A DNA stretch of 41,249 nt from a virus. The stretch spans positions 1 through 41,249 of IMG/VR virus record IMGVR_UViG_3300031673_000161; one strand, given 5' to 3'. Shown piece by piece: positions 1,711-32,965 of the stretch. How positions within the stretch are numbered: the first letter of the stretch is position 1; each line of letters begins with the position of its first letter. The notes beneath the pieces were generated by a model, which did not search any database, was not told the origin of the DNA, and saw nothing but the letters and a program-made list of their open reading frames with translations. The position numbers and the translations under genes were made by a program.

Positions 1711-1739
1711 TTTCCCTCTCAAAAATAATGTTATATCTT

Positions 1740-2050: not shown

Positions 2051-2109
2051 TACTTCAACCTCCTCCCCGCATAAATAATAATAATTAAAAATGCTATTAA
2101 TTTTACCAT
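2050..2109 (-). CDS. Possible hydrophobic microprotein, 19 aa
   Basis: A 19-codon frame (starts MVKLIAFLIIII) would encode a single membrane-spanning helix with a basic tail. Its stop overlaps the next ATG as TAATG. The ribosome binding site is weak and the length minimal, so it may only be a spacer carrying the next gene's Shine-Dalgarno. Confidence 0.25.
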   Translation of the reverse strand: MVKLIAFLIIIIYAGRRLK

Positions 2110-2113
2110 TTTT

Positions 2114-2347
2114 TCAAAATACTTCTTTTTTAAAATCTGGTTCATATTTGTTTTTTAATTTAATATATTTTCCTGACCAATATTTGCATTGCTTATTTAA
2201 TCTAATAATTTCATCAATTAATGTGGCGAAGTTTTTATTACTTAATATCCTATGAGTAATCTTATCACCATTTTTCAATTCTATTTCTTCAAGTGTGGAA
2301 TTATTTACTACAAAATCAATTACTTTTTTTAATTCATCTTTTATCAT
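2114..2347 (-). CDS. Hypothetical protein with ELKNG module, 77 aa
   Basis: This 77-residue protein has a central segment (LEEIELKNG followed by a strand and a helix) that closely matches the C-terminal part of the 140-aa protein at 3861-4283. The two appear to share a small alpha/beta module duplicated within the operon. The tail is basic. The start overlaps the methyltransferase stop (ATGA). No named family. Confidence 0.7.
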   Translation of the reverse strand: MIKDELKKVIDFVVNNSTLEEIELKNGDKITHRILSNKNFATLIDEIIRLNKQCKYWSGKYIKLKNKYEPDFKKEVF

Positions 2348-2985
2348 TTAATTAACTCCGTCTGATAGTAAGTATTTGCTAATCTTTTATTTGCTATATC
2401 TACATAATCGGGATTTATTTCTATGCCTATAAAATTTCTATCTAATAATTTGCAAGCTACTGCCGTTGTACCCGAACCTATAAAGGGGTCAAAAATTATA
2501 TCGTTTTCGTTACTAAAATCTTCTAAAATTCTTTGAAATAATCCGGTAGGTTTCTGGGTAGGGTGATAAATCTTATCTTTACTATCTCTTATAAATCCCT
2601 GTTGTTTAAATAAGTATTTTTTTATTGGCTTTTTAAAACTTGTCCAGATTAATTCACAATCGGCAAAGGGGTTTTTGAAAGCTATATCGCCTTTTTTATC
2701 CCACACTAACCAGCAATTAGATATGGGTAAATTGAAATAATTGCCGCCGAATATAATCTGGTTTCTACTTATTCTGAATATTTCATTAAACACATCCGCT
2801 ATTGGGATTACGCTGTCCCAATTATCGGCGTATCTTCTATTTTTAGAAGAACCAAACCCACCTGTTCCTTTATCACTTTTCTTTCCATAGGGCGGGTCGG
2901 TTAATATCAAATCAATACTTTTATTATCAATTTCTTTCATTATCTCTAAGCAATCCCCACAATATATTTTATTTAGTTCTAACAT
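2344..2985 (-). CDS. Site-specific DNA methyltransferase, N4-cytosine/N6-adenine type
   Basis: The 213-residue enzyme has motif IV first (TDPPYG, residues 29-34) and the SAM-binding motif I near the C-terminus (DPFIGSGTT, 166-174), the beta-class order shared by N6-adenine and N4-cytosine DNA methyltransferases. HPTQKP precedes motif I, as usual for the family. The target-recognition region between them is short, so specificity cannot be read. No partner endonuclease is present. It ends TELIK-stop, with the same 16-nt junction as the MT-A70 gene. Confidence 0.95.
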   Translation of the reverse strand: MLELNKIYCGDCLEIMKEIDNKSIDLILTDPPYGKKSDKGTGGFGSSKNRRYADNWDSVIPIADVFNEIFRISRNQIIFGGNYFNLPISNCWLVWDKKGDIAFKNPFADCELIWTSFKKPIKKYLFKQQGFIRDSKDKIYHPTQKPTGLFQRILEDFSNENDIIFDPFIGSGTTAVACKLLDRNFIGIEINPDYVDIANKRLANTYYQTELIK

Positions 2986-3008
2986 TTATTCCACTTAAAG
3001 TAAGTTGT

Positions 3009-3146
3009 TTATTTATCTTCATTTCCTTTTAATATTTTAATTACTTTTTCAAGTTCAACTATATAACGCTTTACTATTTCCTTATCTTTTGGATTTCTAA
3101 TATGTCCATCTGTTTTAAGCCTTCGCAAACTCTTTTTACATAACAT
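3009..3146 (-). CDS. Hypothetical basic protein, 45 aa
   Basis: A 45-residue frame (starts MLCKKSLR) fills the gap between two methyltransferase genes and begins one base after the upstream stop. It is Lys/Arg-rich and helical at the C-terminus. The Shine-Dalgarno is weak; translation probably depends on coupling. No family recognised. Confidence 0.45.
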   Translation of the reverse strand: MLCKKSLRRLKTDGHIRNPKDKEIVKRYIVELEKVIKILKGNEDK

Positions 3147-3147
3147 A

Positions 3148-3705
3148 TCAACGATTACTTTCGAAAAATGCTTTTGCAAATCCTGGTGGAGTTATGCTTC
3201 TCAATGCACTTCTGTTTTTTGATGGTGACATATAGTGTATTGGATTTTTGCCAATAGGTTCTATAGGATTCTTCTTTGGTATATTGAAATTACCCCACAG
3301 ACAGGTTTTCTTTGTCCAGGGGTCACCGTAATCACAGGGGTTAAAATACATTTTGGGTTTACCAAGATAATTTACTAATCTTCCTACTGGATTTTCAAGA
3401 CACCAAAATACAGGATTTGAAATTACTACAATTCTCAAGCAGGCATCTACTAAAGCCAAGGCTTCAAGTAATGCTTCTGAACCCTTGTTTACCCACCATC
3501 TAGCACCACTACCAGCAAGATTGGTACAAACTGGTGCAGCTAATATTCCATAAATGTTTTCATTGGATTTTGGTTTATATAATCTTACATCATAGCCAAA
3601 TATAATATCCAGTATCCTTACATCATATCCATTATCAGAATAGTCTTTACTCCAGTTACCTTTTGCACCGCATAAATCTATTATGATTTTATTTGAGTTA
3701 TCCAT
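3148..3705 (-). CDS. Phage C5-cytosine methyltransferase-like protein
   Basis: The 185-residue protein resembles short phage cytosine methyltransferases. A SAM-loop-like motif is at residues 9-16 (IDLCGAKG), a PC-loop analogue with Cys60 at 57-60 (APVC, where the family usually has APPC), and ENP at 104-106 stands for the ENV motif. The GDPWTKKTCLWG and TPPGFAKAFF blocks are also typical of these phage proteins. It would methylate cytosine C5 if active. The Pro-to-Val change next to the catalytic Cys and the lack of a target-recognition domain make activity or specificity uncertain. Confidence 0.8.
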   Translation of the reverse strand: MDNSNKIIIDLCGAKGNWSKDYSDNGYDVRILDIIFGYDVRLYKPKSNENIYGILAAPVCTNLAGSGARWWVNKGSEALLEALALVDACLRIVVISNPVFWCLENPVGRLVNYLGKPKMYFNPCDYGDPWTKKTCLWGNFNIPKKNPIEPIGKNPIHYMSPSKNRSALRSITPPGFAKAFFESNR

Positions 3706-3847
3706 TTATTTCCCCACTGTCAATTTTCTTATGATAATTCCACCATAAATTATCTGCGTGTAAAATTAACTTGCCTGAAATAATATGTAATAAATCAATT
3801 ATTAAATTTATTGGTACTGTATAAATTCTTAATAAAATATATTTCAT
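3698..3847 (-). CDS. Hypothetical protein, 49 aa
   Basis: The 49-residue frame (starts MKYILLRIY) has a strong GAGG site 6 nt before the ATG and overlaps the downstream methyltransferase start by 8 nt (ATGGATAA). Its N-terminal half is hydrophobic and may associate with the membrane; the rest is polar and aromatic. No family recognised. Confidence 0.6.
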   Translation of the reverse strand: MKYILLRIYTVPINLIIDLLHIISGKLILHADNLWWNYHKKIDSGEING

Positions 3848-3860
3848 TTTATTTCCTCAC

Positions 3861-4283
3861 TCATTCCGGTAATAATGAACAAAGTTCATTAATCATAATT
3901 CCAAAACCTGCTTGCCCAATAACCCTATAGGCAACCTTTGCTCCATTTTTAAGTTCCAATTCTTCTATGGCTGATGTTTGCAATATTATTTTCTCAACCT
4001 TCCCCCTATCCAATGTTTGTAATTTTTGTAATACCTCTTCGGCAAATGCTTTATAATCGTGTTCTGGAATATTATAGCCGTGGAATGTTAACAATCTTCT
4101 TAATTCCTCAATTATAATTTGCTTATTTTTTGTATCTCTTTCATTTTTCTCCCCAAAAATTATCCTACTTTGTAAATCAACTTCCTCTAATTGAATTTTC
4201 TTATACAAATAGAGCTTAAAATCTTTTAAATATAATATGAATTCTTTAATTAATATAATTAATAATCTTATAAATCTAATCAT
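3861..4283 (-). CDS. Membrane-associated hypothetical protein with ELKNG module, 140 aa
   Basis: The first 35 residues are hydrophobic and basic (IRLLIILIKEFILYL) and look membrane-bound. A charged helical middle follows, then a C-terminal module (LEELELKNG-like, then a strand and helix) shared with the 77-aa protein at 2114-2347. GGAGGG precedes the ATG at about 10 nt. The start overlaps the upstream stop by 8 nt. Function unknown. Confidence 0.7.
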   Translation of the reverse strand: MIRFIRLLIILIKEFILYLKDFKLYLYKKIQLEEVDLQSRIIFGEKNERDTKNKQIIIEELRRLLTFHGYNIPEHDYKAFAEEVLQKLQTLDRGKVEKIILQTSAIEELELKNGAKVAYRVIGQAGFGIMINELCSLLPE

Positions 4284-4470
4284 TTATTTGTCCCTCCTTA
4301 TATGGACTAAATCTATTTAAAATAAATCTTATTGTTTCGGCATATTGTTCTTGATTAATTTTTGGATAGGTTTTTTTTATTTTTTTCCAACCCCTGTCTA
4401 CCATTTTTTCAAGAATATCAGCATATTCATCTCCTATAATTATTCCCTTGTCTGTTTTCCAAAAACCCAT
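4276..4470 (-). CDS. Hypothetical phage protein, 64 aa
   Basis: A 64-residue product starting MGFWKTDKG, with a glycine-containing N-terminal turn and two helices. A run of five G lies 4 nt before the ATG. It has the look of small conserved phage proteins of unknown function. It ends in TAG, overlapping the next gene by 8 nt. Confidence 0.65.
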   Translation of the reverse strand: MGFWKTDKGIIIGDEYADILEKMVDRGWKKIKKTYPKINQEQYAETIRFILNRFSPYKEGQIND

Positions 4471-4484
4471 TTTTCCCCCTTAAA

Positions 4485-4559
4485 TTAATTGTAATTGTTT
4501 ATTTTCATATCATCTGTAACATTTTCTTTTTCAAGTTCAGCTAATTTATATGTTTTCAT
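4485..4559 (-). CDS. Microprotein, 24 aa
   Basis: A 24-residue frame (starts MKTYKLAEL) with AAAGGA 7 nt ahead and an ATGA overlap with the upstream gene. It is charged and helical. Supported only by its translation signals. Confidence 0.4.
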   Translation of the reverse strand: MKTYKLAELEKENVTDDMKINNYN

Positions 4560-4729
4560 TGGTTGTCCTTTCTGGGTAATTTTCTCATTCGTTGCTTAAA
4601 TCGTTTTTCAAACAATTTATCAATGATAGGTTCATTAATATCAAAATTAAATTGTAGACTAATCCCGTCTTTTGTTTCCTTCGTTATGTAATCTAAATAA
4701 ATATCTGGTATTGTGTTTTTAGTTTTCAT
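4556..4729 (-). CDS. Hypothetical protein, 57 aa
   Basis: A 57-residue frame (starts MKTKNTIPD) with GTGAGG about 5 nt before its ATG. The N-terminal half alternates hydrophobic residues (ISLQFNFDI), suggesting strands; the C-terminus is strongly basic (EKRFKQRMRK) and could bind nucleic acid. It overlaps both neighbours as ATGA. No family recognised. Confidence 0.6.
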   Translation of the reverse strand: MKTKNTIPDIYLDYITKETKDGISLQFNFDINEPIIDKLFEKRFKQRMRKLPRKDNQ

Positions 4730-4818
4730 TTATCCTCACTTTCTTTCAATATTTTAATCGGGCAGCACTTTGGAATTAGCGTTTTTGACCCCTTTAAGTT
4801 TTTCCTATTATATTTAAT
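4726..4818 (-). CDS. Possible AUU-initiated microprotein, 30 aa
   Basis: After an in-frame TGA, the frame is open for 30 codons and ends in TGA overlapping the next ATG (ATGA). There is no ATG or GTG, and its only TTG comes near the end. AAAGGAG lies 9 nt before an ATT codon, which is therefore the proposed start. The peptide contains LIPKCCPIKIL and looks protein-like. The GC-rich CCP codons also form one arm of an inverted repeat. See the non-AUG start finding. Confidence 0.4.
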   Translation of the reverse strand: MKYNRKNLKGSKTLIPKCCPIKILKESEDK

Positions 4819-4864
4819 GTTTTTATGCTCCTTTCAAATAGAAAGTTGATAATTAGTGCTGCCC
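4760..4864. repeat. Spaced inverted repeat, 10-bp GC-rich arms
   Basis: GGGCAGCACT at 4760-4769 and its exact complement AGTGCTGCCC at 4855-4864 are separated by 85 bp in very AT-rich DNA. On the minus strand the first arm starts right after the stop of the RDF-like gene and the second lies in the 30-aa frame. Transcript folding would place the ribosome binding site of that frame in the loop. No U-run follows, so it is not a terminator. Confidence 0.6.
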
Positions 4865-5878
4865 TTATACTTTTAATTTACCTTGTTCACTTTCTGCAAA
4901 ATCATCGGCTATTTTTTCTTGTTCTTTCATTTCTCTTTCATAATCTCCCTCAAAACCAGCTTGCGCTGCTTCTGCTTCCACTTCTTGCTCATCTAACTTT
5001 TCTTTTAGATAGGCCATAACTTTATCAAACTGTTTTCTGGTCAGCTCTTTAGATGATTCTTTTATTTTGTAGTTTTGAATTAAATAAATTTTAAATTCTT
5101 CTTTTGTATAACCTAACTTGGAAACCTTTTTCCACATATCTTTTAGTTCGTCTATTGTTACCTTAATTGATTCAACCAAACTTTTTTTATGCAGGTCTTC
5201 TTCAATGTCTTTTTCTTCCGGTCGCTCAGGTTTTTCAAGTTCAAGTATCTGACCAGTTTTAGCTTCCAAAGCTTTCTTTAGTTGTGGGATATCAGCTTCA
5301 AGGCGCAGTACCCAAACAATTTTTTTCTTACCATCAGGGTTTACTTCCTGTGAAATTACATCTAAGAAAAATGGGAGCATTGAAAGTCTGCCTCCAGTTA
5401 ATTTTTTAGCATACTCAATGCCACCGTTAATATTAAGGATTGAATTATAGCTAGATGTATCTAATTGATAGACTCCAAACCGGTTTACTCCACGAATCAT
5501 AAGATACAAGTTTCCTATTTGCTTGCACTTATTCTTTTTGTAGTACTCGCATTCCCGACCCGGACATTCTATTTCCTCAAATTCTCCCGTATCTGTATTT
5601 ACACAATTGGCTACCTCTCCATCTCCCTTACAGACAAGTCCCGTACTTTTTCCATAACGCTTATAGTACTGTGGAAATACTTCCTCCAAATTGTCGGAGT
5701 GAAAAGCAATGTTAAGTCTTTTAGGTTGATCTCCGTAGACTGCCCTTACCTCAATAGGACAGACAAAATAATCCGTAGCCTTAGGATATTCACTTTTACT
5801 TCCTTTTACTTTTACTCCAAGATGAATTTTACCCAGTCTTGGAATCCGTCCTCTTCCTTGAAAATCTTTTATTGGCAT
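4865..5878 (-). CDS. phiC31 gp3-like (recombination directionality factor family) protein
   Basis: The 337-residue protein has the run of features I associate with phage gp3/RDF-family proteins, often labelled hydrolase or metal-binding protein: IHLGVK near the start, PKATDYFVCP (32-41), FPQYYKRYGKS, a Cys cluster (CKGDGEVANC, then CPGREC and a further Cys), and QLDTSSYNSILNIN followed by GGRLSMLPFFLDV. The last 130 residues are charged and coiled-coil-like. In phiC31, gp3 turns the serine integrase toward excision, but many relatives occur without a known integrase partner. No integrase is in this window. It is preceded by an HNH gene and a RecB-like nuclease, so a DNA-processing role is likely. 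Confidence 0.65.
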   Translation of the reverse strand: MPIKDFQGRGRIPRLGKIHLGVKVKGSKSEYPKATDYFVCPIEVRAVYGDQPKRLNIAFHSDNLEEVFPQYYKRYGKSTGLVCKGDGEVANCVNTDTGEFEEIECPGRECEYYKKNKCKQIGNLYLMIRGVNRFGVYQLDTSSYNSILNINGGIEYAKKLTGGRLSMLPFFLDVISQEVNPDGKKKIVWVLRLEADIPQLKKALEAKTGQILELEKPERPEEKDIEEDLHKKSLVESIKVTIDELKDMWKKVSKLGYTKEEFKIYLIQNYKIKESSKELTRKQFDKVMAYLKEKLDEQEVEAEAAQAGFEGDYEREMKEQEKIADDFAESEQGKLKV

Positions 5879-6510
5879 AATTTATTCTCCTTTATTATTT
5901 CTTTATGATAATTAAGATGTTCTATGTTGTTGGCAAATAACATTAAATTTTCTGGCTTATTATTTGAAACATTACCATCAATATGATGTACTATTTCTTT
6001 TGGTTTGAGATATCTACCTAAAATTTTTTCCATTACCAATCTATGTTCCATTACATAACCTTTATGATCTCCATTGGGATGTCTTCTATTTTTTATTTGA
6101 ATATAACCCATTTGATGTATTGTTTTACCACCCTTCCAATGATTTGCTTTTTCGTGTATTCTCCCCTTCATTATTTTCGCTAAATTAGGTTTTTTAACTC
6201 CACAACAAGCATCGCTTATTTTTTTACATATTTCTTTTGATACTGGCATACCTTTATTTGTTGGAGGCAAACCTATTCTTGCTGTTCTCATCTTTTTTAA
6301 AACTTCTTCGCTATATACTCCTTTTTTACCTTTATTCCACGGGGTTCTACCAGACATTTTCTTTCTGACTTCCTTAGTTCTTTTAGTTCCTTTTTCAGCA
6401 ATTTCAAAACATCTTCGACAACAATATTTTCTTTTATTGCTTATATAATTTTGGAATATTTTTCCACAAACTTGGCAGGTTATTTCAATTTTTCTTTTCC
6501 CATATTTCAT
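5869..6510 (-). CDS. HNH homing-type endonuclease
   Basis: The 213-residue protein has an N-terminal zinc motif (Cys12, 15, 30/31, 34), a repeated NUMOD3-like DNA-binding segment (about 50-105, PWNKGK and NKGMPVS repeats), an NHWKGG block, and a C-terminal HNH nuclease core (VHHIDG with His175-176, then NLMLFANN and a late His). This is typical of free-standing phage homing endonucleases. Its end overlaps the RDF-like gene by 10 nt, so it is well integrated in the operon although probably mobile by origin. Confidence 0.93.
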   Translation of the reverse strand: MKYGKRKIEITCQVCGKIFQNYISNKRKYCCRRCFEIAEKGTKRTKEVRKKMSGRTPWNKGKKGVYSEEVLKKMRTARIGLPPTNKGMPVSKEICKKISDACCGVKKPNLAKIMKGRIHEKANHWKGGKTIHQMGYIQIKNRRHPNGDHKGYVMEHRLVMEKILGRYLKPKEIVHHIDGNVSNNKPENLMLFANNIEHLNYHKEIIKENKLCQ

Positions 6511-6512
6511 TC

Positions 6513-7211
6513 CTAAATTATCCCTCCTGTCTTATTAGCCTTTATTTGTTTTTGTAAATAATAGATATCCACGCACCTTAAAAATAATTGAAATTCGACT
6601 TCTAAATTTTCTGCTGAAATGGATTTAACTTGGAAACTATCATTTTCGCTTTTGGGAATATTTAAGATTATTACTTTTTTAACCTCATATTTCTGTTCGA
6701 TTATTAAATTGAGGTAAGCTGCTAATTGTATAAAGTGTTCATCATATAAATTTGACCCTGTTTTAAAATCCGTTAAAGTAGGTTCGTTATCTACCAATCC
6801 ATATAAATCGGGAGTGCCACCATATTGATATTTTTCAGAAACCAGTGGAGTTTCGACTAAAATTGTTTTTAATTTTCTTGGTCTTGCCCATTCAAAAAAA
6901 CTCAACAGGCTATTATCAGTAAGTTTCCATACTTCAGGGGATATATTGCAATTATCAATTTCATATCCTAAAAAATAAGCCATTATTCTTGCATGGATTA
7001 TGGTCCCAACATTGGCAGCCTTATCCCTGGATTCATAAAGTTCTAAACCATCCCTACCTCGTTTATAAGCCCAGGGTATAAGAGCTGGTTTTGAAAGTAT
7101 ATTAAGTGCAGTGGTAGTACCCACTATTTTCTGCTCTTTAGAATTCTTATAAATAATATGCGGTTCATTAAAATTTATTTTTACTTTTTTGAGTTCTTTT
7201 GTCTTTCCCAT
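6513..7211 (-). CDS. PD-(D/E)XK nuclease, Cas4/RecB-like exonuclease
   Basis: At 232 residues it shows the RecB-nuclease signature in order: GTIIHA (69-74), GGTPD with Asp135, TDFKTG with Asp148 and Lys150, and QLAAY (162-166). These residues bind the metal and catalyse DNA cleavage. Such phage enzymes usually act as exonucleases in recombination or replication, and pairing with the gp3-like protein downstream fits a recombination set. No Cys cluster for an iron-sulfur centre is evident. Confidence 0.9.
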   Translation of the reverse strand: MGKTKELKKVKINFNEPHIIYKNSKEQKIVGTTTALNILSKPALIPWAYKRGRDGLELYESRDKAANVGTIIHARIMAYFLGYEIDNCNISPEVWKLTDNSLLSFFEWARPRKLKTILVETPLVSEKYQYGGTPDLYGLVDNEPTLTDFKTGSNLYDEHFIQLAAYLNLIIEQKYEVKKVIILNIPKSENDSFQVKSISAENLEVEFQLFLRCVDIYYLQKQIKANKTGGII

Positions 7212-7213
7212 TT

Positions 7214-7396
7214 TTATTCAACCTTTCCGCCCGCTCTTTTAACTTCATCAATGTAATCCTGCTTTTCCCTTAACATATCAAATTTAGATAAATCCTCCTC
7301 ACAACCATAAGCATTTACAATTTTACTATTAAGCCTGCATTTCCAATTTCCCCTAAAATCAATATACTGGAATGGACATTCCTTACATTTATTCAT
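7214..7396 (-). CDS. Small Cys-motif protein, 60 aa
   Basis: The 60-residue protein has a CxxC at residues 4-7 and further Cys at 20 and 32, which could bind one zinc or iron-sulfur centre, followed by a charged helix. It is directly upstream of the RecB-like nuclease with a 2-nt gap, so the two are probably co-translated. No named family. Confidence 0.7.
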   Translation of the reverse strand: MNKCKECPFQYIDFRGNWKCRLNSKIVNAYGCEEDLSKFDMLREKQDYIDEVKRAGGKVE

Positions 7397-7409
7397 TATT
7401 TCTCCCTTC

Positions 7410-7562
7410 TCATATTAAGCACCAGCCACGGCATTTACCTGATTTATTATATGGGCAACTCTTTTTCTTTTTGGCACATCTGTTATTAACTTTTTTAATT
7501 CTGTTATTTCCATATTCTTTGAAGAAGTTATCTATTCTTTTTTGTATTTCAGTTAATGCCAT
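7410..7562 (-). CDS. Small Cys-rich protein, 50 aa
   Basis: The ATG frame of 50 residues begins directly after the upstream TAG, with AGGGG about 6 nt ahead. Its C-terminal half has four Cys (29, 36, 44, 48) in a very basic context (CAKKKKSC), suggesting a compact zinc-binding nucleic-acid-contacting protein. Not recognised as a named family. Confidence 0.7.
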   Translation of the reverse strand: MALTEIQKRIDNFFKEYGNNRIKKVNNRCAKKKKSCPYNKSGKCRGWCLI

Positions 7563-8018
7563 CTAATTCCCCTTTCCCTCTGTTAATTGAAACCTACTAT
7601 CTATCATTTTTTCGTATAAAGTTCTGCCATCTTTCATCGTCATATAAGGCAGAAATATCTGTTCCATTTGAACCATCTCTGTTTCTAAAATTGCCATTTG
7701 TGCCTTAACCCAATAAAGAATTATTCTCCAAGAAACTCTTAGGGCTTGATGCTCATTTACAAACCCTGCCGATATTGTTTTTTCCTCATGTTGTTGTTTT
7801 AAAATTTTATAAACTGGTTCTGGATTACAGGGGAGTTGTATTGCCATATCTCCATGTTGTGTACTTACCATAAAAGATAAGGATTTAATTTTTCCTTCAC
7901 CGTCATAATCAGATAGTATGGATTTAGCACCGTGAGAAGTTAATACCTCTTGAATTTCAGCCACGGTTTTTTGCGGTTCTATTTTAGTTGTATATGTAAA
8001 TAATCCTTTTTTACTCAT
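7563..8018 (-). CDS. Conserved phage protein, 151 aa
   Basis: The protein has a YTTKIEPQKTVAEIQEVL start, a strand-rich middle (LSFMV, MAIQLP) and a C-terminal helix with RVSWRIILYWVKAQMA and FLPYM. This is a pattern I have seen in a widespread phage and mobile-element family without known function. GGGGGGT sits 6 nt ahead of the ATG at 8018, and the upstream stop overlaps that ATG by 8 nt, so 8018 is preferred over the ATG at 8024. Confidence 0.8.
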   Translation of the reverse strand: MSKKGLFTYTTKIEPQKTVAEIQEVLTSHGAKSILSDYDGEGKIKSLSFMVSTQHGDMAIQLPCNPEPVYKILKQQHEEKTISAGFVNEHQALRVSWRIILYWVKAQMAILETEMVQMEQIFLPYMTMKDGRTLYEKMIDSRFQLTEGKGN

Positions 8019-8145
8019 TTTCATACCCCCCGCACTCCTCAGTTGGATCTTCCAGGTTGCAATTAGAACAAGCTAGATTTTTACAGTTTTCATCTATGCA
8101 GGTATTGCATAAACATCTATCACATACTTTTAGTATTGTTTTCAT
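8011..8145 (-). CDS. Cys-rich microprotein, 44 aa
   Basis: This 44-residue frame has eight Cys (8, 11, 13, 16, 21, 26, 29, 38), enough for two metal sites. The start overlaps the YopX stop (ATGA) and its stop overlaps the downstream ATG by 8 nt (ATGAGTAA). It is acidic at the C-terminus. Together with the 50- and 60-aa neighbours it makes a group of small Cys proteins around the nuclease gene. Confidence 0.7.
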   Translation of the reverse strand: MKTILKVCDRCLCNTCIDENCKNLACSNCNLEDPTEECGGYENE

Positions 8146-8477
8146 TTTAATAACTCTGGATTTTTATATATATTGCCGATGATTTCTAAAAATTTGAATT
8201 GACCTAGTCTTTTAAATCCATAATCTTTTGTTTCCACCCCAAACATTCCATCTTTAAAAATTACTAAATAATTAAAGTTAGCCATTTCGATAATTTCCCC
8301 AATATCTCCCTCATAAATTTCCTTACAATTTTTATCTTTTAATCCTGTATATTGCATAGGTTTAGACCAATGATTTGCTATATCTTTAAAATCAGAAAAT
8401 CTTATACACTCATCTTCTTTGAAATATCTCATACAATTATTTAATTTATCCCAAGCTCTAAATTTAATTTCTCTCAT
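8142..8477 (-). CDS. YopX family protein
   Basis: The 111-residue sequence carries the YopX hallmarks: IKFRAWDK at the start, MQYTGLKDKNCKEIYEGDI in the middle and FLEIIGNIYKNPELL at the end. YopX proteins are common in Firmicute phages; their biochemical role is unknown. It ends PELLK-stop, where the tail codons supply the GAG-type ribosome binding site of the next gene. Confidence 0.95.
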   Translation of the reverse strand: MREIKFRAWDKLNNCMRYFKEDECIRFSDFKDIANHWSKPMQYTGLKDKNCKEIYEGDIGEIIEMANFNYLVIFKDGMFGVETKDYGFKRLGQFKFLEIIGNIYKNPELLK

Positions 8478-9478
8478 TTTATTAACCTCTTTCCTATTTC
8501 AGTAATTACATTTGTTGTAACAGCATTGCCAAGCATTTTATATCTCTGTGTATCACTTACTCCCCCTGTCCAGTTATCTGGGAATCCCTGTAATCTTTCA
8601 CATTCTATTGGGGTTAAACGCCTTATAGATAATCCCTTAAATCCAATTTCTGGAGTTCTACCACTTCTTAAACAACTTCGATTATCTCTTCCGTCTCTCA
8701 TTATCATTGTCCTCTGTCCGTGGTTAAGCCACCCTTTATAATAATTGCTGTCAATGGCGTGGACGATTTGTCTATTAATTTCTGAATATGTGTTATTTGT
8801 TTCTCCGATAGGAAATACTTCCGGTCTACATTCTCCTCTAAGATGTCCGACAATGAACACCCTTTCCCTATTCTGTGGGACTCCGAAATCCTTGCTGTTA
8901 AGCACCTGCCATTGAACGTCATACCCCAATTCATAAAGGGTATAGATAATGGTTCTAAATGTTGTTCCATTATCATGTGAAAGCAACCCTTTGACATTTT
9001 CAAGTAGAAAATATCCAGGCTTTTTATGATGTAGTATTCTTGCAATGTCAAAAAAGAGAGTACCTCGTGTATCTTCAAATCCTTTCCGTTTGCCAGCAAT
9101 CGAGAAAGCTTGGCAAGGGAATCCACTTGTGAGCAAATCGTGGTCGGGGATTTCATCAACGTCAACTGTTGTGATATCTCTTGTGTCTGGTTTTTCCCTA
9201 AAGTTTTTTTCATAGATTTTTGCTGCGTATTTATCCCATTCATTGGCATAGACACAAGTAAGTGTTCTATTGTTTGGGTTGCTGTTAAATTGTTTGCAAT
9301 ATCGTCTTGTCTTATTTTCAATTCCTTGCCCCTGCGTGGACTCCAATCTTTGCCCCGCCTCTTCATTTTTTTTCGTATTTGTTTGGCCTCTTCCGTCCTG
9401 GTTTCTGTCAACGCTTTCCAATCCATATCTAAATCCCCCAATACCTGCAAATAATTCTATAAATCTAATTTCTCTTAT
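8474..9478 (-). CDS. C5-cytosine DNA methyltransferase (Dcm-type), probable AUA start
   Basis: All C5 methyltransferase motifs are present if the frame is read from 9478: motif I ELFAGIGGF (residues 8-16), PC loop with Cys122 (FPCQAF), ENV (160-162), QNRER (202-206), a target-recognition region, then RRLTPIECERLQGFP and the closing GNAV motif. The first standard start in frame is TTG 9421, which would remove motif I. Between an upstream in-frame TAG and motif I there is no ATG, GTG or TTG, but AGGAG lies 6 nt before an ATA at 9478. Total 334 residues. An unusual, polar insert of about 50 residues separates motif I from CVYANEWDKYA. Base composition is richer in GC than neighbours. Confidence 0.9.
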   Translation of the reverse strand: MREIRFIELFAGIGGFRYGLESVDRNQDGRGQTNTKKNEEAGQRLESTQGQGIENKTRRYCKQFNSNPNNRTLTCVYANEWDKYAAKIYEKNFREKPDTRDITTVDVDEIPDHDLLTSGFPCQAFSIAGKRKGFEDTRGTLFFDIARILHHKKPGYFLLENVKGLLSHDNGTTFRTIIYTLYELGYDVQWQVLNSKDFGVPQNRERVFIVGHLRGECRPEVFPIGETNNTYSEINRQIVHAIDSNYYKGWLNHGQRTMIMRDGRDNRSCLRSGRTPEIGFKGLSIRRLTPIECERLQGFPDNWTGGVSDTQRYKMLGNAVTTNVITEIGKRLIK

Positions 9479-9585
9479 TTCAAACTCCTATAATCTCTTA
9501 TTTCCATTTTATATTGGCAAGGGCAGAATACTCCTAAACCACCCTTGCCTTTTGCCAAGAAAGGAGGTGATTCCTGCTGTGGCAA
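9475..9585 (-). CDS. Possible leader peptide of the dcm gene, 36 aa
   Basis: From a TTG at 9585 a 36-codon frame ends in TAA overlapping the proposed ATA start of the methyltransferase (ATAA). It holds CPCQYK and ends RDYRSLK. There is no good ribosome binding site before the TTG, so this may be only the reading of a structured leader. It is in the same frame as the 30-aa gene upstream. Confidence 0.25.
   Translation of the reverse strand: MPQQESPPFLAKGKGGLGVFCPCQYKMEIRDYRSLK
9485..9571 (-). promoter_or_regulatory. Structured leader of the dcm gene with anti-SD-like sequence
   Basis: The leader RNA contains ATCACCTCCTTTCT (9558-9571), identical over 14 nt to the conserved 16S rRNA 3' tail including the anti-Shine-Dalgarno. 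It also has an 8-bp hairpin (GGCAAGGG/CCCTTGCC, 9516-9549) with AGGAG in its loop, and the AGGAG used by the methyltransferase (9485-9489). Pairing of the CCTCC segment with either AGGAG would hide ribosome binding sites, so translational control is inferred. Confidence 0.45.
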
Positions 9586-9594
9586 ATTAATATT

Positions 9595-9687
9595 TTATTT
9601 ATTTTCATGCCATTCCCTTAAATAAGCACGGTTCATTTCTTTTATCTCTTTTATAATTGCTCTTAATATTTGTTTTAGTTTATTCAT
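9595..9687 (-). CDS. Microprotein, 30 aa
   Basis: A 30-residue basic helical frame (starts MNKLKQIL, ends REWHENK) starts 2 nt after the stop of the XRE regulator gene. It has no clear ribosome binding site of its own and would depend on coupling. No family recognised. Confidence 0.4.
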   Translation of the reverse strand: MNKLKQILRAIIKEIKEMNRAYLREWHENK

Positions 9688-26455: not shown

Positions 26456-26947
26456 TTACCCACGCTCCATCTCCGTTGTATCAGACTGCCTTAAATCCCA
26501 GTATTTTTGTATACAGTATTCTTTATTGTATTTATCCTGCGGTATGGTCTCATCTCCAAGCCTTGTATTACCGCTAAAAGTAGCCTGCGCGGCCCTTACC
26601 AACCAGATGTCGCTGGCTGTTTTATACAAATCATAATACTGTGCATTGATATAGACTGCGTCCTGTTCTGCTGTAAAGGTGTAAATCCCGTTTATATCAT
26701 CTGCCGTGTAATCTCCTTCTTCACCGGATATTTCCGTAAAGTCGGTTGTACCGTCATCAAGCACCCTGTTATCGAGGTACTTATATTCACAAATCCACAC
26801 TAAATAATCATCAGTCTCCGCAGTCAGGGGGTAGTCGTCTAAGGTATTTCTGTATTTATTCAAATATACGTTAAGCTGGTCATCAGTAAAATCTTCACTA
26901 TTAGGGTCTTCAATCAACCTTCTAAGTTCAGTTAGTAATTGGCTCAT
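26456..26947 (-). CDS. Head-tail connector (adaptor-like) protein
   Basis: The 163-residue protein begins with a helical QLLTELRRLIEDPNSEDFTDDQLNVYLNK region, followed by acidic strands and a C-terminal helix with YDLYKTASDIWLVRAAQATF. This matches head-completion adaptors that begin with a gp6-like helical bundle. It is the first connector gene after the glycan cassette, and its start overlaps the end of the glycosyltransferase gene by 20 nt. Confidence 0.75.
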   Translation of the reverse strand: MSQLLTELRRLIEDPNSEDFTDDQLNVYLNKYRNTLDDYPLTAETDDYLVWICEYKYLDNRVLDDGTTDFTEISGEEGDYTADDINGIYTFTAEQDAVYINAQYYDLYKTASDIWLVRAAQATFSGNTRLGDETIPQDKYNKEYCIQKYWDLRQSDTTEMERG

Positions 26948-27542
26948 TTATCTTGGCCTCTCTTTTCATTAAAATTTTGTAGTAAGCTTTTTTATCCTTT
27001 TGTCTATTATAATCCCGCTTATGGTTGTTGTGTAAAAATTCAACTTTGGTTTTATCGCTGGTATAACATGTCCCCACCCTGTCAAGGTTTGCAAATAACC
27101 TGCCGTCCCTGTCCAGTAGCATTTTATGAGTCCCCCGGTAGTGCAGGCCTTCCCTAAACCTGAAAAATCTGTTAGAACGTCTATGTCTTTGTCTATCACC
27201 CTGCTCACCTATCTGGATTATACCTATATCACTTTTAAGTTTAGGCAGTCCCGTTATAAGGACTTCGTCAGCGTCAATGTTTAGGCAGATGTCACCATCT
27301 ACGAGCTGGTCTAAATAACTATTACGCTTTCCTATTTCATCAGCATTTATAGATGATATCAAGTCTATATTAAGACTTCCCAGATATTCTAAAGTACCGT
27401 CAGTAGAATCCCATCCCGAACCTGGAAAATCTTTAAATCTACCATCTATTACGACAATCTTATCAACTTTATTCTGTATTGATTCTATGCAATCCCGAAT
27501 TAGGGGCATATCATTATAGGTTATTATCGTAGCTATCAGCAT
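26928..27542 (-). CDS. Glycosyltransferase (GT2-like), 204 aa
   Basis: The N-terminus LIATIITYNDMPLIRDCIESI is a typical GT-A nucleotide-sugar fold start, and NIDADEV (around residue 90) supplies the DXD metal motif. The remainder (RFREGLHYRGTHKML) resembles bacterial family 2 transferases. It is the last gene of the cassette and runs 20 nt into the connector gene. Confidence 0.87.
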   Translation of the reverse strand: MLIATIITYNDMPLIRDCIESIQNKVDKIVVIDGRFKDFPGSGWDSTDGTLEYLGSLNIDLISSINADEIGKRNSYLDQLVDGDICLNIDADEVLITGLPKLKSDIGIIQIGEQGDRQRHRRSNRFFRFREGLHYRGTHKMLLDRDGRLFANLDRVGTCYTSDKTKVEFLHNNHKRDYNRQKDKKAYYKILMKREAKINEPITN

Positions 27543-28390
27543 TTTAATTTCCAGTATTTTCCTAATTCAAAGTCAAATTCTTTAGGGAACTTGGCATGAC
27601 CCGAACCTGGATAATGTGTTATTTCACCAAAATATATATAACCATCTACTAAGTAAAAATCAATACGTACAAAATCAAACCCTTTACTTAACTTTTCGGC
27701 AAACCCTATCATTTTGCTAAGATATTTTGGTTTCTCTATAAATGGCGCAACCTTATGGCCTTCCCTAACAATGTTTAATGAATTCCAATCCCTGTCGTAA
27801 TAATTAAAAGTAGTAAGCCCGTGACTGGTTACATATATCATTCGGCATTTTCCATCAAACATGCAAAATCTATAATCACTTGGCAGACCGCCACCCTTTT
27901 CACGAAGTAGTTTTTCAATTATAATCAGCGGTTTAATCTGGCCATAAGCCCATTCATACCACTCGATACCATGTACTGTCCTAAACCATTCTTTACAAAT
28001 ATTTATTATTTCCGAATTATTTAAATTAAGTGCTTTTTTGTGCGTATAATTAATGTCGTAATTCTTTAATCCATTGATACCTTCTGCAAGTATCCATCTT
28101 CCAGCAGCATTATTGGGTTTTATAATGTATTCCCCGGTCAGTTTATTTGGCGGTATTTTCTCGGGATTATCGGTAACATATAGCAACGGTATTAAATGAT
28201 TATCCGCTTCAAAACCTATCTTATCTCTAATATACTGTCTTGCCCTATATTTATCTGCTGTCAGTGGTATTAACGGGTTACGGTCAAAAATCTTCTTATA
28301 TACTATTTTTTCATTGAAAGATTTAGGATTATCTAAATTTAAAGGATAGCCATGTATCTTTAAAAATAGTTCTTTCTCATCTTCATACAT
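27536..28390 (-). CDS. TupA-like ATP-grasp enzyme
   Basis: The 284-residue protein carries the ATP-grasp/TupA pattern: SFNEKIVYKKIFDRNPLIPLTADK, EYIIKPNNAAG for ATP binding, SDYRFCMFDGK, NYYDRDWNSL, and FDFVRIDFYLVDGYIYFGEITHYPGSG with the metal-binding acidic residues. TupA relatives occur in teichuronopeptide and exopolysaccharide gene sets and probably ligate an amino acid or similar group. It overlaps both neighbours. Confidence 0.92.
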   Translation of the reverse strand: MYEDEKELFLKIHGYPLNLDNPKSFNEKIVYKKIFDRNPLIPLTADKYRARQYIRDKIGFEADNHLIPLLYVTDNPEKIPPNKLTGEYIIKPNNAAGRWILAEGINGLKNYDINYTHKKALNLNNSEIINICKEWFRTVHGIEWYEWAYGQIKPLIIIEKLLREKGGGLPSDYRFCMFDGKCRMIYVTSHGLTTFNYYDRDWNSLNIVREGHKVAPFIEKPKYLSKMIGFAEKLSKGFDFVRIDFYLVDGYIYFGEITHYPGSGHAKFPKEFDFELGKYWKLKC

Positions 28391-28865
28391 TCCGAACCTT
28401 CTGTAAAATCACGTGTAAATTAGTTTCGCTTACAAATTTGTTTTCCAATACTTTAAAATTACACTTAATACCATAACTTTTAGATAGCCAGTTTCCCTTC
28501 CAGCTCATATCAAAATATCTAAAAGACATATCATTCCAATAACTTCTATGTGTGGGATCAGCAAATGCACCCCTGCAAGCTTTACCATCTGGACTTTGTG
28601 TTGGAGGTACATATATTTCAAATAATCCACCCAATATCAATATCCTGTAAACCTCATTAAAAAACCAGATAACCTTGTCCTGTGGAATATGTTCAATAAA
28701 GTGTGCTGCGTAAACTCCCTCTATTGAATTATCTTTAAATGGAAACTCTTTAAATAGGTCAGCCTTTATAAATTGTCCTTTGGGATAAATATTTGAATGA
28801 TCCTCTATATCTACCCCCACATAGCCTTCTTTTATATTCTTTCCACAACCTAAATTAATTTTCAT
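28383..28865 (-). CDS. SAM-dependent methyltransferase, class I
   Basis: The 160-residue enzyme shows motif I NLGCGKNIKEG (4-14), an acidic VDIED after strand 2, AHFIEHIP and a later EIYVPP strand. This fits small methyltransferases of glycan biosynthesis clusters that methylate sugars or lipid-linked intermediates. It lies among glycosyltransferase genes, so DNA is an unlikely substrate. Confidence 0.9.
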   Translation of the reverse strand: MKINLGCGKNIKEGYVGVDIEDHSNIYPKGQFIKADLFKEFPFKDNSIEGVYAAHFIEHIPQDKVIWFFNEVYRILILGGLFEIYVPPTQSPDGKACRGAFADPTHRSYWNDMSFRYFDMSWKGNWLSKSYGIKCNFKVLENKFVSETNLHVILQKVRNV

Positions 28866-28869
28866 ATAT

Positions 28870-30276
28870 CTAATTATAAAATCTATTTTGTTTTATATGT
28901 TTTATCAATCCAAAATTATAATGATCTTCAATATTTACCTGATTGATTGATGGATACAATTTAAATGTACCGGGAATATTATTAACTTTAATCCCCATCT
29001 TCCAAGCTACATAATTAAAACTTAATTGATCCCGCAATGAACCAGAACATATCTCTTTCCACATAGCTTCATTTAGGGCATTTATTTTAGGTGTATGTCT
29101 TCGCAGTATTACCCTGGTTTGATGTAATCCATTATTGACCGGATAATCCTCTGCTCTAAATTTCAACATTTGTTTTTCTATAGTTTTGACATTATCTAAC
29201 TTAAAATCAATACAAACTTTAGCTTCTTCATAAATGCAGTTTCTCCAGTGTTTAAGCAATGCAATATCAGCACTGGCAAGATACATTCTTATAAGTGCGG
29301 TAAGTTCTGACATTATTATTATATTTGAATCTACCCATATGCTATACTGAACATCGGGAAAGAACTTATGTATCAGCCATTTATACATTCTGGCTTCTCT
29401 ACGATTATTATTTAACTTTGTTTTTATATATTTTATATTCCAGAAAGAACTTTTTATATTTTCATCATCGGCAAACATTATGTAGTTAAATCCTGGATTA
29501 TCAAAGTGCTTTTTTATCGGATTATCCACTCCACCAATATTTGCAGTTACAACAACTTCTTCCGGTATGTATTTATCCCATTTTTTTATAAAATAATCCT
29601 TGCTTTGTTGTTCGTGCAATTTTTCATCAGGGTGTAAATTCTTATACTTGATGTCATTTATGGTTGCTTTTGTTCTATCATCGGCAAAATGTGTGGTTTT
29701 ACTATTCATGGCATAAAGACTGAATCCGAGTTTCCGATACTGCATGGACAGGTCCCAGTCATAGAAATAATAATCCAAGTTTTCATCTAACTTTAACCCC
29801 ACATTTCTTATTATCATACAGCAACCATCAAGTACAATAACCTCATCAAACTCACCCTGTATGCGTTTAAATTCAAATTTAGCGTATTTTTCTATTCCCG
29901 TAGCAAGATTGGTAACTTCAATATTTCTTCTAAGTCTTTTAAACCCGGCAATACCGACCATTCCCACCTTTCCGTTACTCTCCATAAATGATATTGCCTT
30001 ATTGATCCAATTGTCTGTACTTACTACAATATCATTGTGCATGAGTACCACATATTTACTTTTTGCAAATAATAAGGCTTTATTAAATGCTTTTGGTATA
30101 CCCTCGTTTTTACTATTTTTTATAATATTAATATCAAATCTGTCAAGATAACCTGGATCATCTGAACCATTATCCACAACTGTTATATTTATATTTTTAT
30201 TATAGAAAAATAAACTTTTTAGTGTCTGGATGGTCTCATTTTTCCTGTTGAGTGTGGGGATTATTACATCAATCAT
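28870..30276 (-). CDS. Bifunctional protein: GT2 domain plus DUF616-like glycosyltransferase domain
   Basis: Residues 1-230 form a family 2 glycosyltransferase (DVIIPTLNRKNETIQTLKSL, MHNDIVV as metal motif, DYYFYDWDLSMQYRKLG). Residues about 235-468 form a second domain with VVVTANIGGVDNP, YIMFADDE, EARMYKW, YSIWVDSNI and a DQLSFNYVAWK end, as in DUF616/TOD1-like proteins, which are GT-A related. The fusion suggests two successive sugar additions by one polypeptide. Confidence 0.87.
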   Translation of the reverse strand: MIDVIIPTLNRKNETIQTLKSLFFYNKNINITVVDNGSDDPGYLDRFDINIIKNSKNEGIPKAFNKALLFAKSKYVVLMHNDIVVSTDNWINKAISFMESNGKVGMVGIAGFKRLRRNIEVTNLATGIEKYAKFEFKRIQGEFDEVIVLDGCCMIIRNVGLKLDENLDYYFYDWDLSMQYRKLGFSLYAMNSKTTHFADDRTKATINDIKYKNLHPDEKLHEQQSKDYFIKKWDKYIPEEVVVTANIGGVDNPIKKHFDNPGFNYIMFADDENIKSSFWNIKYIKTKLNNNRREARMYKWLIHKFFPDVQYSIWVDSNIIIMSELTALIRMYLASADIALLKHWRNCIYEEAKVCIDFKLDNVKTIEKQMLKFRAEDYPVNNGLHQTRVILRRHTPKINALNEAMWKEICSGSLRDQLSFNYVAWKMGIKVNNIPGTFKLYPSINQVNIEDHYNFGLIKHIKQNRFYN

Positions 30277-31025
30277 ATTTCTACTTCATTTTCAATAAAT
30301 AAATTTGGGCTTTTCTTTTTTTTAAGAACCTCTAAATTACTTTTTGTGATTATATGCTTGTCTATTTTCATTTCCTCAAATGTCTTATGTCTGTAATGGT
30401 GAACGAAAGATTGTTTTACCCAATATAATTTAAATCCTGCTTTTCTTGCCCTAAGGTTAAAATCAACTTCTTCTGCTCCGCCTATGGGAAAATTCTTCCA
30501 GTCAAATACTCCAATTTTATCTATGACCTCTTTTTTGATTAAATAACAAAACCCCTGCAAGTCTGTTATTTCTTGATATCCTTCTTCCAGTGTAAAACTT
30601 AATTTTATAATCTCATCAATGGATATATCGTCTTTTGGCTTTTTAAATAAGCTTTGAGTAGCTGGACAGTAAGTTGTTGTAGGGGTTACAATTCCTGCAT
30701 TTGGTTGATTAAATCCCTTCATTAATTTGCTTAACCAGTCAGGCGTAACAACTGTATCTGAATTTAGAAGACAATAATATTTATATTTAGCAATTTTAAC
30801 TCCTTGATTACAGGCATAAGCAAATCCTTTATTTTCCTTATTGGTTATAACCCTTACATTACTTAAACTTTTTATGTAATTTCTCGTTGGACTATACGAG
30901 GCATTATCTACAATTATAAGTTCATAATTGGCGGTATATTTTAATACACTCTCAATACACTCTCTTAAATATTTAAGACAATTATAAACAGGTATTATAA
31001 TGCTGACTGGCTCATTAAGTTTCAT
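30273..31025 (-). CDS. Glycosyltransferase family 2 protein
   Basis: The 250-residue GT-A enzyme begins VSIIIPVYNCLKYLRECIES, has LLNSDTVVTPDW as the metal and acceptor region, and VFDWKNFPIGGAEEVDFNLRARKAG before the conserved VHHYRHKTF end. It is closely similar to the next gene (31031-31777), indicating a duplication inside the cassette. Confidence 0.92.
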   Translation of the reverse strand: MKLNEPVSIIIPVYNCLKYLRECIESVLKYTANYELIIVDNASYSPTRNYIKSLSNVRVITNKENKGFAYACNQGVKIAKYKYYCLLNSDTVVTPDWLSKLMKGFNQPNAGIVTPTTTYCPATQSLFKKPKDDISIDEIIKLSFTLEEGYQEITDLQGFCYLIKKEVIDKIGVFDWKNFPIGGAEEVDFNLRARKAGFKLYWVKQSFVHHYRHKTFEEMKIDKHIITKSNLEVLKKKKSPNLFIENEVEI

Positions 31026-31030
31026 AAATT

Positions 31031-31777
31031 TTATCCCTCTAATTCAACATCATTTTCAATAAATAAATTCTTATCCTTTTTCCGTTCTTCAAATATTTTC
31101 TTATTATTTTTAAGTGTATCTATTCCAATTACATCAAATGTCTTGTGCCCGTAATGATGAACATAGGCATCCCTAATCCAGTAACTTCTATAACCCAGTT
31201 TTTCAAGTCTCCATTGCAAATCAATTTCATCATAATTACCAAACCCGTAACGTTTCCAGTCAAATACCCCTACCTTATCCAAAACTTCTCTTTTGGTAAG
31301 CATACAAAAACCATAAATTTCAGTTTGGATATATTCTTCTTTTAGCCTGCTAGAATAATCCAATATCTCTGCTTCTGATATCTTGAACCTTTTATCTATC
31401 AGGGTTTTATCACACTGCTTACCTCTTGAATAACAGGTTGTCGGAGAGGCTATTCCACAGTCAGGATTAACCTCAAAACATTTCTGTAATTTATCTAACC
31501 AGTTGGGAGTAATGAAAGTATCGGAATTTAGAAAGCAGATATATTTATTTCTTGCAATTTTTATCCCCTGATTGCAAGCATAGGGGAAACCTCTATTTTC
31601 ACTATTTGTTATAATTATTGCATCTAAATCTTTTAAATATTCTTTAGTTTCTTTGTTGGAATCATTATCTATTATTATAAGTTCATAACCAGCAGTATAT
31701 TTTCTAATGCTATCTATACACTTTTTAAAATACTTCAGAGCGTTTTTTACGGGGATTATTATACTGGTTTTTTCCAT
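31031..31777 (-). CDS. Glycosyltransferase family 2 protein, paralogue
   Basis: A 248-residue paralogue of the downstream gene, with TSIIIPVKNALKYFKKCIDSI, FLNSDTFITPNWLDKLQ, GVFDWKRYGFGNYDEID and VHHYGHKTF. Both end NLFIEN plus an acidic tail. It is the first gene of the cassette and overlaps the 89-aa head-region gene by 19 nt, so the cassette is fused smoothly into the late operon. Confidence 0.92.
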   Translation of the reverse strand: MEKTSIIIPVKNALKYFKKCIDSIRKYTAGYELIIIDNDSNKETKEYLKDLDAIIITNSENRGFPYACNQGIKIARNKYICFLNSDTFITPNWLDKLQKCFEVNPDCGIASPTTCYSRGKQCDKTLIDKRFKISEAEILDYSSRLKEEYIQTEIYGFCMLTKREVLDKVGVFDWKRYGFGNYDEIDLQWRLEKLGYRSYWIRDAYVHHYGHKTFDVIGIDTLKNNKKIFEERKKDKNLFIENDVELEG

Positions 31778-32028
31778 TTGCTTTTTTTTCTTTTGTACTT
31801 GGGTTTTTTTATAACTTCTATAAGTTCTCCAATTTCCCCTACTTCTACTTCTTCTAAAGGTAATTTTATACCTTCGGCTGTTTTTAATTCTGCTGTAAAT
31901 TCTTCATATTTATGTGCAATACCTCGATTTATCCAACGTTGATATACCTTTAAGGGCACATCTTTTATATCACCCGGCTTTAGACTTTCACCTTCAAAAT
32001 TTGTAATAACATTTAAAACTACTTTCAT
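31759..32028 (-). CDS. Small head-region protein, 89 aa
   Basis: The N-terminal 45 residues (LNVITNFEGESLKPGDIKDVPLKVYQRWINRGIAHK) resemble the short domain seen in phage head or FluMu-like proteins encoded just after the capsid gene. The C-terminus is an acidic stretch followed by a very basic tail. AGGAG precedes the ATG. Role unknown. Confidence 0.7.
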   Translation of the reverse strand: MKVVLNVITNFEGESLKPGDIKDVPLKVYQRWINRGIAHKYEEFTAELKTAEGIKLPLEEVEVGEIGELIEVIKKPKYKRKKSKWKKPV

Positions 32029-32046
32029 AATACTCCTAATTTTATT

Positions 32047-32068
32047 GGGGGGTATATTTCAACCCCCC
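32047..32068 (-). terminator. GC-rich hairpin after the capsid gene, possible attenuator
   Basis: GGGGGGT and ACCCCCC form a 7-bp stem with an 8-nt loop just after the capsid stop. The following sequence is AATAAAATT without a U-run, so full termination is doubtful. It may protect or limit transcript 3' ends, giving high capsid output. Confidence 0.5.
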
Positions 32069-32074
32069 GTTATT

Positions 32075-32965
32075 TTATAGTCCTGTAACTTTTGCGATTG
32101 CGTTTACGTCTCTAATTGCAAATCCACGTCTTATTTTAGCTCTAACTGCTACCTTATCTTCGGTAAGCAGATTATCGTCTCCAACTATTCCAGTATCAAA
32201 CTTTTTCAAGTTCATTGAGTTTCTAACACCTTCAAATAGATAGCTCCAATCTGCCATTATCAGTTCATAGGCAGCAGGTGATCCTGTTTGCTGAAAGTTC
32301 CTTGAAAACCTTATTGGATAACCAAAGAGTGTTCCAGGCTCTTTTGCATTTCCAGGTTCAAATATAGGCCTATTATTATCATCTCTCATATCTCTCATTC
32401 TGGCTTTTACTGTCGGATGGGTTGCAAATCCAATATTATACTGGAATCCATTTACTTCAAGTCTATTTAAAGCCTGTGAACAATCAGCAACGAAATCAGC
32501 ATAAGTACCAAATGCCACTGTATTTGCAACAGGACAACTTCCCGAAATTGTCTGTGCAAATGGAGTTCCTGCAAAATAACCTAAATAGGACTGTTCTAAT
32601 GCTGCCAAAAGTTGAGTTTCAATTTCTTTTCTTATCAAAGCATCGTATGCAATATTAGCATCTTCAAGCAGTATTTCGGTTATCTTTACAATTATTGCGA
32701 TCTCATAAGCGGTCAAGGTAATCTGTCTATGTGACTCATTGCTGGTTGTCTTTGCTCCACCTTCACCGTCTACCCATGTCCATACAACGTCATCATCGAG
32801 AGCGTTCATACGCAACGTTGCACTTGTCATGGGCAGTTGTGTCAAATACGGGATTATAGCCGAAGCATTGGCTATATTTTCAAACATAGAAGTTGCCAAT
32901 GGGGTAGGTACTGTATACCCACCTGCAGCACTGGTCAAACTACTTTTTATATCTGGTCTACTCAT
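32075..32965 (-). CDS. Major capsid protein, HK97 fold
   Basis: The 296-residue protein shows the usual order of HK97-type capsid proteins: a short N-terminus, VPTPLATSMFENIANASAIIPYLTQLPM, a glycine-rich strand-loop (DGEGGAKTTSNES), EIAIIVKITEILLEDA, the helical spine, ATHPTVKARMRD, a GYPIRFS strand and a final VAVRAKIRRGFAIRD. No prohead protease gene was seen, so it is likely assembled on the separate scaffold protein encoded just upstream. Confidence 0.95.
   Translation of the reverse strand: MSRPDIKSSLTSAAGGYTVPTPLATSMFENIANASAIIPYLTQLPMTSATLRMNALDDDVVWTWVDGEGGAKTTSNESHRQITLTAYEIAIIVKITEILLEDANIAYDALIRKEIETQLLAALEQSYLGYFAGTPFAQTISGSCPVANTVAFGTYADFVADCSQALNRLEVNGFQYNIGFATHPTVKARMRDMRDDNNRPIFEPGNAKEPGTLFGYPIRFSRNFQQTGSPAAYELIMADWSYLFEGVRNSMNLKKFDTGIVGDDNLLTEDKVAVRAKIRRGFAIRDVNAIAKVTGL

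Follow-up and report, generated by a model that had tools for sequence, protein, structure and literature searches.

A glycan gene cassette at a recurrent site between capsid and connector genes of related phages, a putative locus of virion glycosylation

That phages code for the glycosylation of their own virions is already known. To our knowledge, it has been described from few phages, chiefly mycobacteriophages. In the part of the Corndog report drawn on here, gp35 to gp38 of this cluster O mycobacteriophage are an O-methyltransferase, two glycosyltransferases (GTs) and a putative N-acetylglucosamine (GlcNAc)-transferase encoded among structural genes, and the authors propose a complex modification of the capsid with methyl groups and glycans (PMC4351075). 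Later reports of glycans on capsids and tail tubes, including virion glycosylation of Corndog, are cited in the relevant parts of PMC12363180 and PMC12619734. Here we describe a cassette of six glycan-related genes in the virus record IMGVR_UViG_3300031673_000161, which was analysed over its whole length of 41,249 bases (hereafter, the window) and carries siphovirus genes read from the minus strand. Based on sequence comparisons and structure models, we consider it probable (about 0.6) that the cassette is a locus for cytosolic glycosylation of virion proteins, in which a fixed initiating enzyme is combined with swappable extension genes.

The cassette and its terminal glycosyltransferase

The six genes occupy exactly positions 26928-31777 of the minus strand and are listed in the order in which they are read.

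31031..31777, minus strand: GT248, extender-like GT2 glycosyltransferase of 248 amino acids (aa); PF00535, E 3e-28
30273..31025, minus strand: GT250, GT2 glycosyltransferase of 250 aa; PF00535, E 4e-35
28870..30276, minus strand: GT468, fusion of a GT2 and a TOD1/MUCI70 domain, 468 aa; PF00535 at 4-158, E 1e-19, and PF04765 at 272-432, E 2e-20
28383..28865, minus strand: MT160, S-adenosylmethionine (SAM)-dependent methyltransferase of 160 aa; PF08241 (Methyltransf_11), E 2e-6, and phrog_6636 methyltransferase, E 1e-12
27536..28390, minus strand: TupA284, TupA-like ATP-grasp ligase of 284 aa; PF14305 (ATPgrasp_TupA), E 6e-31
26928..27542, minus strand: GT204, conserved terminal glycosyltransferase of 204 aa; present in relatives, with PDB profile matches to GmaR, ThuS and SunS and fold matches to SunS/ThuS

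The open reading frames match exactly the span that had been given in a preliminary description of this DNA. The same description had named three GT2 enzymes, a GT2-DUF616-like fusion, a TupA-like ATP-grasp and a methyltransferase; five of these were recovered by Pfam, and GT204 by profile and fold. The C-terminal domain of GT468 (PF04765, the former DUF616) scores 73.8 bits against a curated cut-off of 21.4, and TupA284 scores 108.3 bits against a cut-off of 25, covering positions 2-240 of the 241 positions of its profile. GT250 and GT248 are paralogues with 50% identity. The nearest PDB sequences are GalT1 and chondroitin synthase for GT248 and chondroitin synthase for GT250, and chain extenders such as TarF and SpsA were also among the matches of the two. 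The presence of the modification enzymes MT160 and TupA284, both assigned by Pfam, beside the GTs bears out the earlier claim of a gene set for a decorated glycan made in several steps. When GT468 was used as a single-protein probe against viral contigs, no match was obtained, and blast revealed no homologue of TupA284 among the compared island proteins of other phages.

GT248 overlaps the preceding gene, which encodes an 89-aa protein (head89), by 19 nucleotides (nt). The following junctions are +5, -4, +4, -8 and -7, so that gaps between cassette genes never exceed 5 nt, and GT204 overlaps the connector-position gene (conn163) by 20 nt; the overlaps of 19-20 nt at the two ends had been correctly noted before. 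Promoter-like matches in the cassette region (83, compared to 67 in shuffles with a standard deviation of 8.6) were not clearly above the shuffles. Because the cassette is packed into the run of head and neck genes with overlapping ends, its genes are probably co-translated with those for capsid and tail.

GT204 matched the Pfam GT2 family with an E-value of 0.025, under the cut-off. Two profiles, one of four sequences and one of 13, were each run against all PDB sequences. Both retrieved GmaR, ThuS and SunS, beyond which there was noise (ribosomal S18/S13, E 0.075 and worse), and the best match was the N-terminal GT domain of GmaR (E 6e-6). In Foldseek searches with the AlphaFold2 model of GT204 (predicted local distance difference test, pLDDT, 92.8), the six best matches were all SunS/ThuS, with TM-scores over the query (TMq) of 0.64-0.67 at nearly full length; with the best of them at E 3e-9 and TMq 0.67, GT204 has a GT-A fold like that of SunS. 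The E-value of the seventh match was about 800-fold worse, and most of the remaining matches span the GT-A core only. An acidic D-x-D motif is present, with D90, D92 and E93 invariant across the 13 sequences. In BFVD, a fold search returned numerous viral GT2 proteins whose annotation was uninformative. GT204 is confirmed by its family profile and predicted fold as a divergent GT2-type enzyme, and by both it resembles enzymes which attach the initial sugar to proteins (GmaR, SunS and ThuS).

Islands at the same site in related phages

Related contigs were retrieved with the major capsid protein (MCP), the connector-position gene, the portal or GT204 as query, and near-identical contigs were counted once as one phage. 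Islands at the same site were found in 19 distinct related phages, a comparison that the preliminary description had proposed as a check. Twelve of them came from searches that were not based on a GT (L002, L003, L004, L006, L007, L013, L015, L017, L018, L024, L053 and L054), and seven were added by the GT204 searches (L010, L019, L032, L033, L034, L035-37 and L038). The latter set includes a lineage with 50-55% G+C, the portals and MCPs of which are distant from those of the window. In all contigs of the group which extend more than about 300 bases beyond the MCP gene, a small protein is followed by glycan genes, and a GT204 homologue is located immediately upstream of the connector-position gene in every contig covering the start of that gene. 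In L018 (positions 8384-9648) a tandem pair of GT204 homologues, 40% identical to each other, precedes the connector-position gene. In the cultured Bifidobacterium phage Bbif-1 (MCP identity 29%), no GT is annotated in the corresponding stretch, and tblastn with GT204 and conn163 gave no match in cultured phage records.

The islands were compared in the nine phages in which they are complete. Their interior is hypervariable: 37 genes fall into 25 families, while GT204 is present in all nine. On average, 9% of the interior genes are shared per ordered pair, and in 54 of the 72 pairs none is shared. Interiors also contain GT4 enzymes, FkbM and other methyltransferases, and radical-SAM/SPASM and B12-radical-SAM enzymes; in the L032 island, a sugar epimerase and a transketolase divided over two genes are found. 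Homologous pairs of island genes have ratios of non-synonymous to synonymous polymorphism (pN/pS) of 0.15-0.44, which indicates purifying selection. Since the same site recurs in 19 distinct related phages and the genes are under purifying selection, the island is not a chance arrangement. A membrane-helix-like segment was detected in none of the 56 island proteins, the highest hydropathy over 19 residues being 1.56.

The MCP has been exchanged between backgrounds, L007 and the window being 86% identical in portal, 86% in tail tube and 45% in MCP, while the MCPs of L007 and L015 are 94% identical. In L003, L033, L034 and L038, HNH-type and DNA-methylase-like genes, identified by eye, are inserted at many junctions among the structural and island genes.

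On the minus strand of the window, the gene order is terminase, portal, head morphogenesis, scaffold, MCP, 89-aa protein, cassette, 163-aa protein, neck, tail completion, tail tube and tape measure. The genes next to the cassette are the following.

32075..32965, minus strand: MCP; PF05065, E 2e-34, and phrog_10 major head protein, E 1e-38
31759..32028, minus strand: head89, first gene after the MCP gene, 89 aa; DUF7210-like domain at residues ~1-41 and a Lys/Arg-rich tail
26456..26947, minus strand: conn163, connector-position gene, 163 aa; role assigned from its position before head-tail and neck genes

The placement between capsid and connector, as described previously, is supported upstream by the PF05065 match and downstream by position, with neck and tail genes following. 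Pfam and PHROG family searches with conn163 gave no match; its identity to three relatives is 70-75%.

The domain of about 40 aa in head89 (pLDDT 92-94 for residues 1-40 in AlphaFold2) recurs in the small post-MCP proteins of relatives and in island GTs, either N-terminally or internally. It is fused to GT4 enzymes in L003, L024 and L004, to multidomain GT2 enzymes in L002, L007, L010 and L015, and is also found on GTs of L032-L034, L053 and L054. We call it DUF7210-like, as the best score with PF23843 (DUF7210), obtained with the protein from L002, was 19 bits (E 1e-3, positions 1-38 of 38) against a cut-off of 27. A fold search returned nothing significant (best, the N-domain of ribosomal L9, E 0.16, then GINS; YqbF, 0.37). 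One guess suggested by the fusions is that the domain acts as a tether that draws GTs to one shared partner, which may be the head during its assembly. Directly before the GT248 start, at window positions 31782-31789 of the minus strand, a run of eight A occurs in the head89 frame (aga aaa aaa agc). A -1 slip at this run would join head89 to GT248, and fused DUF7210-GT proteins are carried by relatives. Programmed -1 frameshifting was abandoned as a general explanation because eight of ten loci showed a +1 relation between the frames.

A G+C-rich hairpin lacking a T-run on the minus strand lies at 32046-32069, in the short interval from the MCP gene to head89, and might separate capsid from cassette expression as a step. 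The early region (310-9421) encodes several DNA methylases (MT-A70, N6/N4 and C5-cytosine) and a Gp3-like recombination directionality factor, and the integrase models PF00589 and PF00239 gave no match. The only relative of the portal in the genome collection is on a 3.1-kb contig (L028, DMWH01000294.1; 48% identity) of the Clostridiales metagenome-assembled genome UBA8386, a weak hint at a Clostridiales host. GT204 was searched for in 249 genomes of this order with no match, in a search that had no positive control.

Proposed function and alternative explanations

According to the proposed mechanism, an abundant virion protein would receive its first sugar from GT204 in the cytosol, on a Ser, Thr or Cys side chain. 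Extension to an oligosaccharide may then be carried out by GT248, GT250 and both GT domains of GT468; MT160 would methylate this oligosaccharide, and the TupA-like ATP-grasp may add an amino acid or acid group in amide linkage. The enzymes may be recruited to the assembling head by the DUF7210-like domain, which is part of the post-capsid protein and, in relatives, of GTs as well. With interior genes exchanged among phages and initiating GT and flanks kept constant, each phage would obtain a distinct surface glycan, and the likely benefit would be an altered or shielded particle surface. GT204 is constant and the site-specific island recurs while its interior is swapped; therefore, these phages probably cover their virions with sugars that change fast.

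The preliminary description had left open whether the virion or the host surface is modified. The virion is favoured by the protein-GT-like sequence and predicted fold of GT204, by the lack of membrane proteins in the islands and by the fusions with the small domain, and the host surface is retained as a less probable target. The observation of this description is confirmed and its interpretation is partly supported.

Several points weigh against the proposed function. The likeness to protein GTs is distant, with 16% identity in the fold match, and GT204 is outside the curated SunS family (15.8 bits with NCBIfam TIGR04195, compared to a cut-off of 350). Its GT2 subgroup also holds lipooligosaccharide-core enzymes, which are not known to have solved structures that could compete in such searches. 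GT250 also weakly matches polypeptide N-acetylgalactosamine-transferase, so the contrast between extenders and initiator is not absolute. In a profile comparison, the GT204 family was unrelated to Che8 gp110 (probability 0.1%, E 0.53). The MCP as a specific partner or acceptor of GT204 is not supported by co-divergence (rho 0.07). The divergence of GT204 follows that of the head-morphogenesis (rho 0.93) and connector-position (rho 0.81) proteins; when the L017/L018 pair is left out, rho is 0.74 for head morphogenesis, 0.46 for the connector position and 0.36 for the MCP. This pattern could be explained by linkage and lineage alone.

The most serious competitor, which we nevertheless regard as unlikely, is that the island alters the surface of the host cell at a late stage of infection, resulting in superinfection exclusion or in progeny sticking less to debris. 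GTs in structural regions were interpreted in this way in pelagimyophages (PMC7029224) and Gratiaviridae (PMC8008677), GT248 and GT250 weakly match GtrB-like PHROGs, and the island gene sets look like small polysaccharide loci. However, with no membrane protein in the islands, there is no phage-coded flippase, polymerase or lipid-linked initiating enzyme; moreover, the conserved enzyme is protein-GT-like, and any change of the surface at the time of capsid assembly would come late.

That the site merely tolerates insertions, and that passenger genes pile up there without a common virion role, would be in agreement with the fast turnover of interior genes and with the HNH-type and DNA-methylase-like insertions in some relatives. 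This seems improbable considering that glycan chemistry is consistently carried, that the last GT and the small post-MCP protein are always retained, and that the genes have overlapping reading frames in addition to low pN/pS. Slightly more improbable still is an action of the GTs on phage DNA by glycosylation of hypermodified bases. Viruses are known to code for GTs which glycosylate DNA (Pyle et al. 2024, as cited in the relevant part of PMC12619734), and a C5-cytosine methylase is encoded in the window, but a hydroxymethylase of the thymidylate-synthase type (PF00303) was not found there, although the controls were positive. A search for TET/JBP also gave no match, in this case without a working positive control. 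The neighbours of the cassette are head and neck genes and not replication genes, and an ATP-grasp and a methyltransferase would be unexpected.

Going beyond virion glycosylation as such, one may tentatively, at somewhat less than even odds, regard the arrangement as a phage "serotype locus". The fixed SunS/GmaR-like initiating GT and the DUF7210-like docking domain would mark a swap site for glycan gene sets (GTs, methyltransferases, radical-SAM and B12 enzymes, ATP-grasp, epimerase and split transketolase) that change the sugar coat of the virion. Such a locus would be the viral equivalent of the capsule loci of bacteria, cytosolic and without a lipid carrier. If this is true, some phages vary their particle surface much as bacteria vary their capsules. 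It would also make GT204 a single named enzyme with a directly testable acceptor, and the small DUF7210-like domain may steer glycosyltransferases to a chosen substrate.

Comparison with known systems

Like the cassettes of the Corndog/Che8 type, the window has GT and methyltransferase genes inside the run of structural genes. The Corndog genes are located between portal and protease, whereas those of the window are between MCP and connector, and the part of the Corndog report considered mentions no ATP-grasp, radical SAM enzyme or DUF7210-GT fusion. Che8 gp110, which was reported to be necessary for capsid glycosylation and clusters structurally with Corndog gp38, is not related to GT204. Cellulophaga phage phi12:1 also has a DUF616-type GT adjoining a methyltransferase-like gene amid head genes (gp39-gp40), but this is one GT between minor capsid and protease genes, and it matches the C-terminal half of GT468 only (28.7%).

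Along nearly all of GT204, the nearest solved folds are those of the peptide S-glycosyltransferases SunS and ThuS. However, they have 420-430 aa and modify bacteriocin peptides, while GT204 has 204 aa and is about 16% identical to them. GmaR, the flagellin O-GlcNAc transferase of Listeria (PMC9638930), has a GT domain matching the GT204 profile, and its acceptor is a self-assembling structural protein modified in the cytosol; it differs in having tetratricopeptide repeat, linker and antirepressor domains of its own, which GT204 lacks.

At the level of the whole island, the host-recognition island of pelagimyophages and cyanomyophages (PMC7029224) is similar in being variable, GT-bearing and fixed in place in the structural region. 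It belongs to large myophages, contains tail-fibre genes and is read as a locus for modification of host lipopolysaccharide, and no fixed terminal GT is described in the part of that report considered. Gtr-type O-antigen conversion (GtrA/GtrB) differs from the islands in that their proteins have no membrane-helix-like segment, a result obtained without a dedicated search with a GtrA model. What is new here is the lineage-wide swapping locked to one site, the SunS/GmaR-like GT unrelated to Che8 gp110, the domain shared between the post-capsid protein and the GTs, and the richer chemistry.

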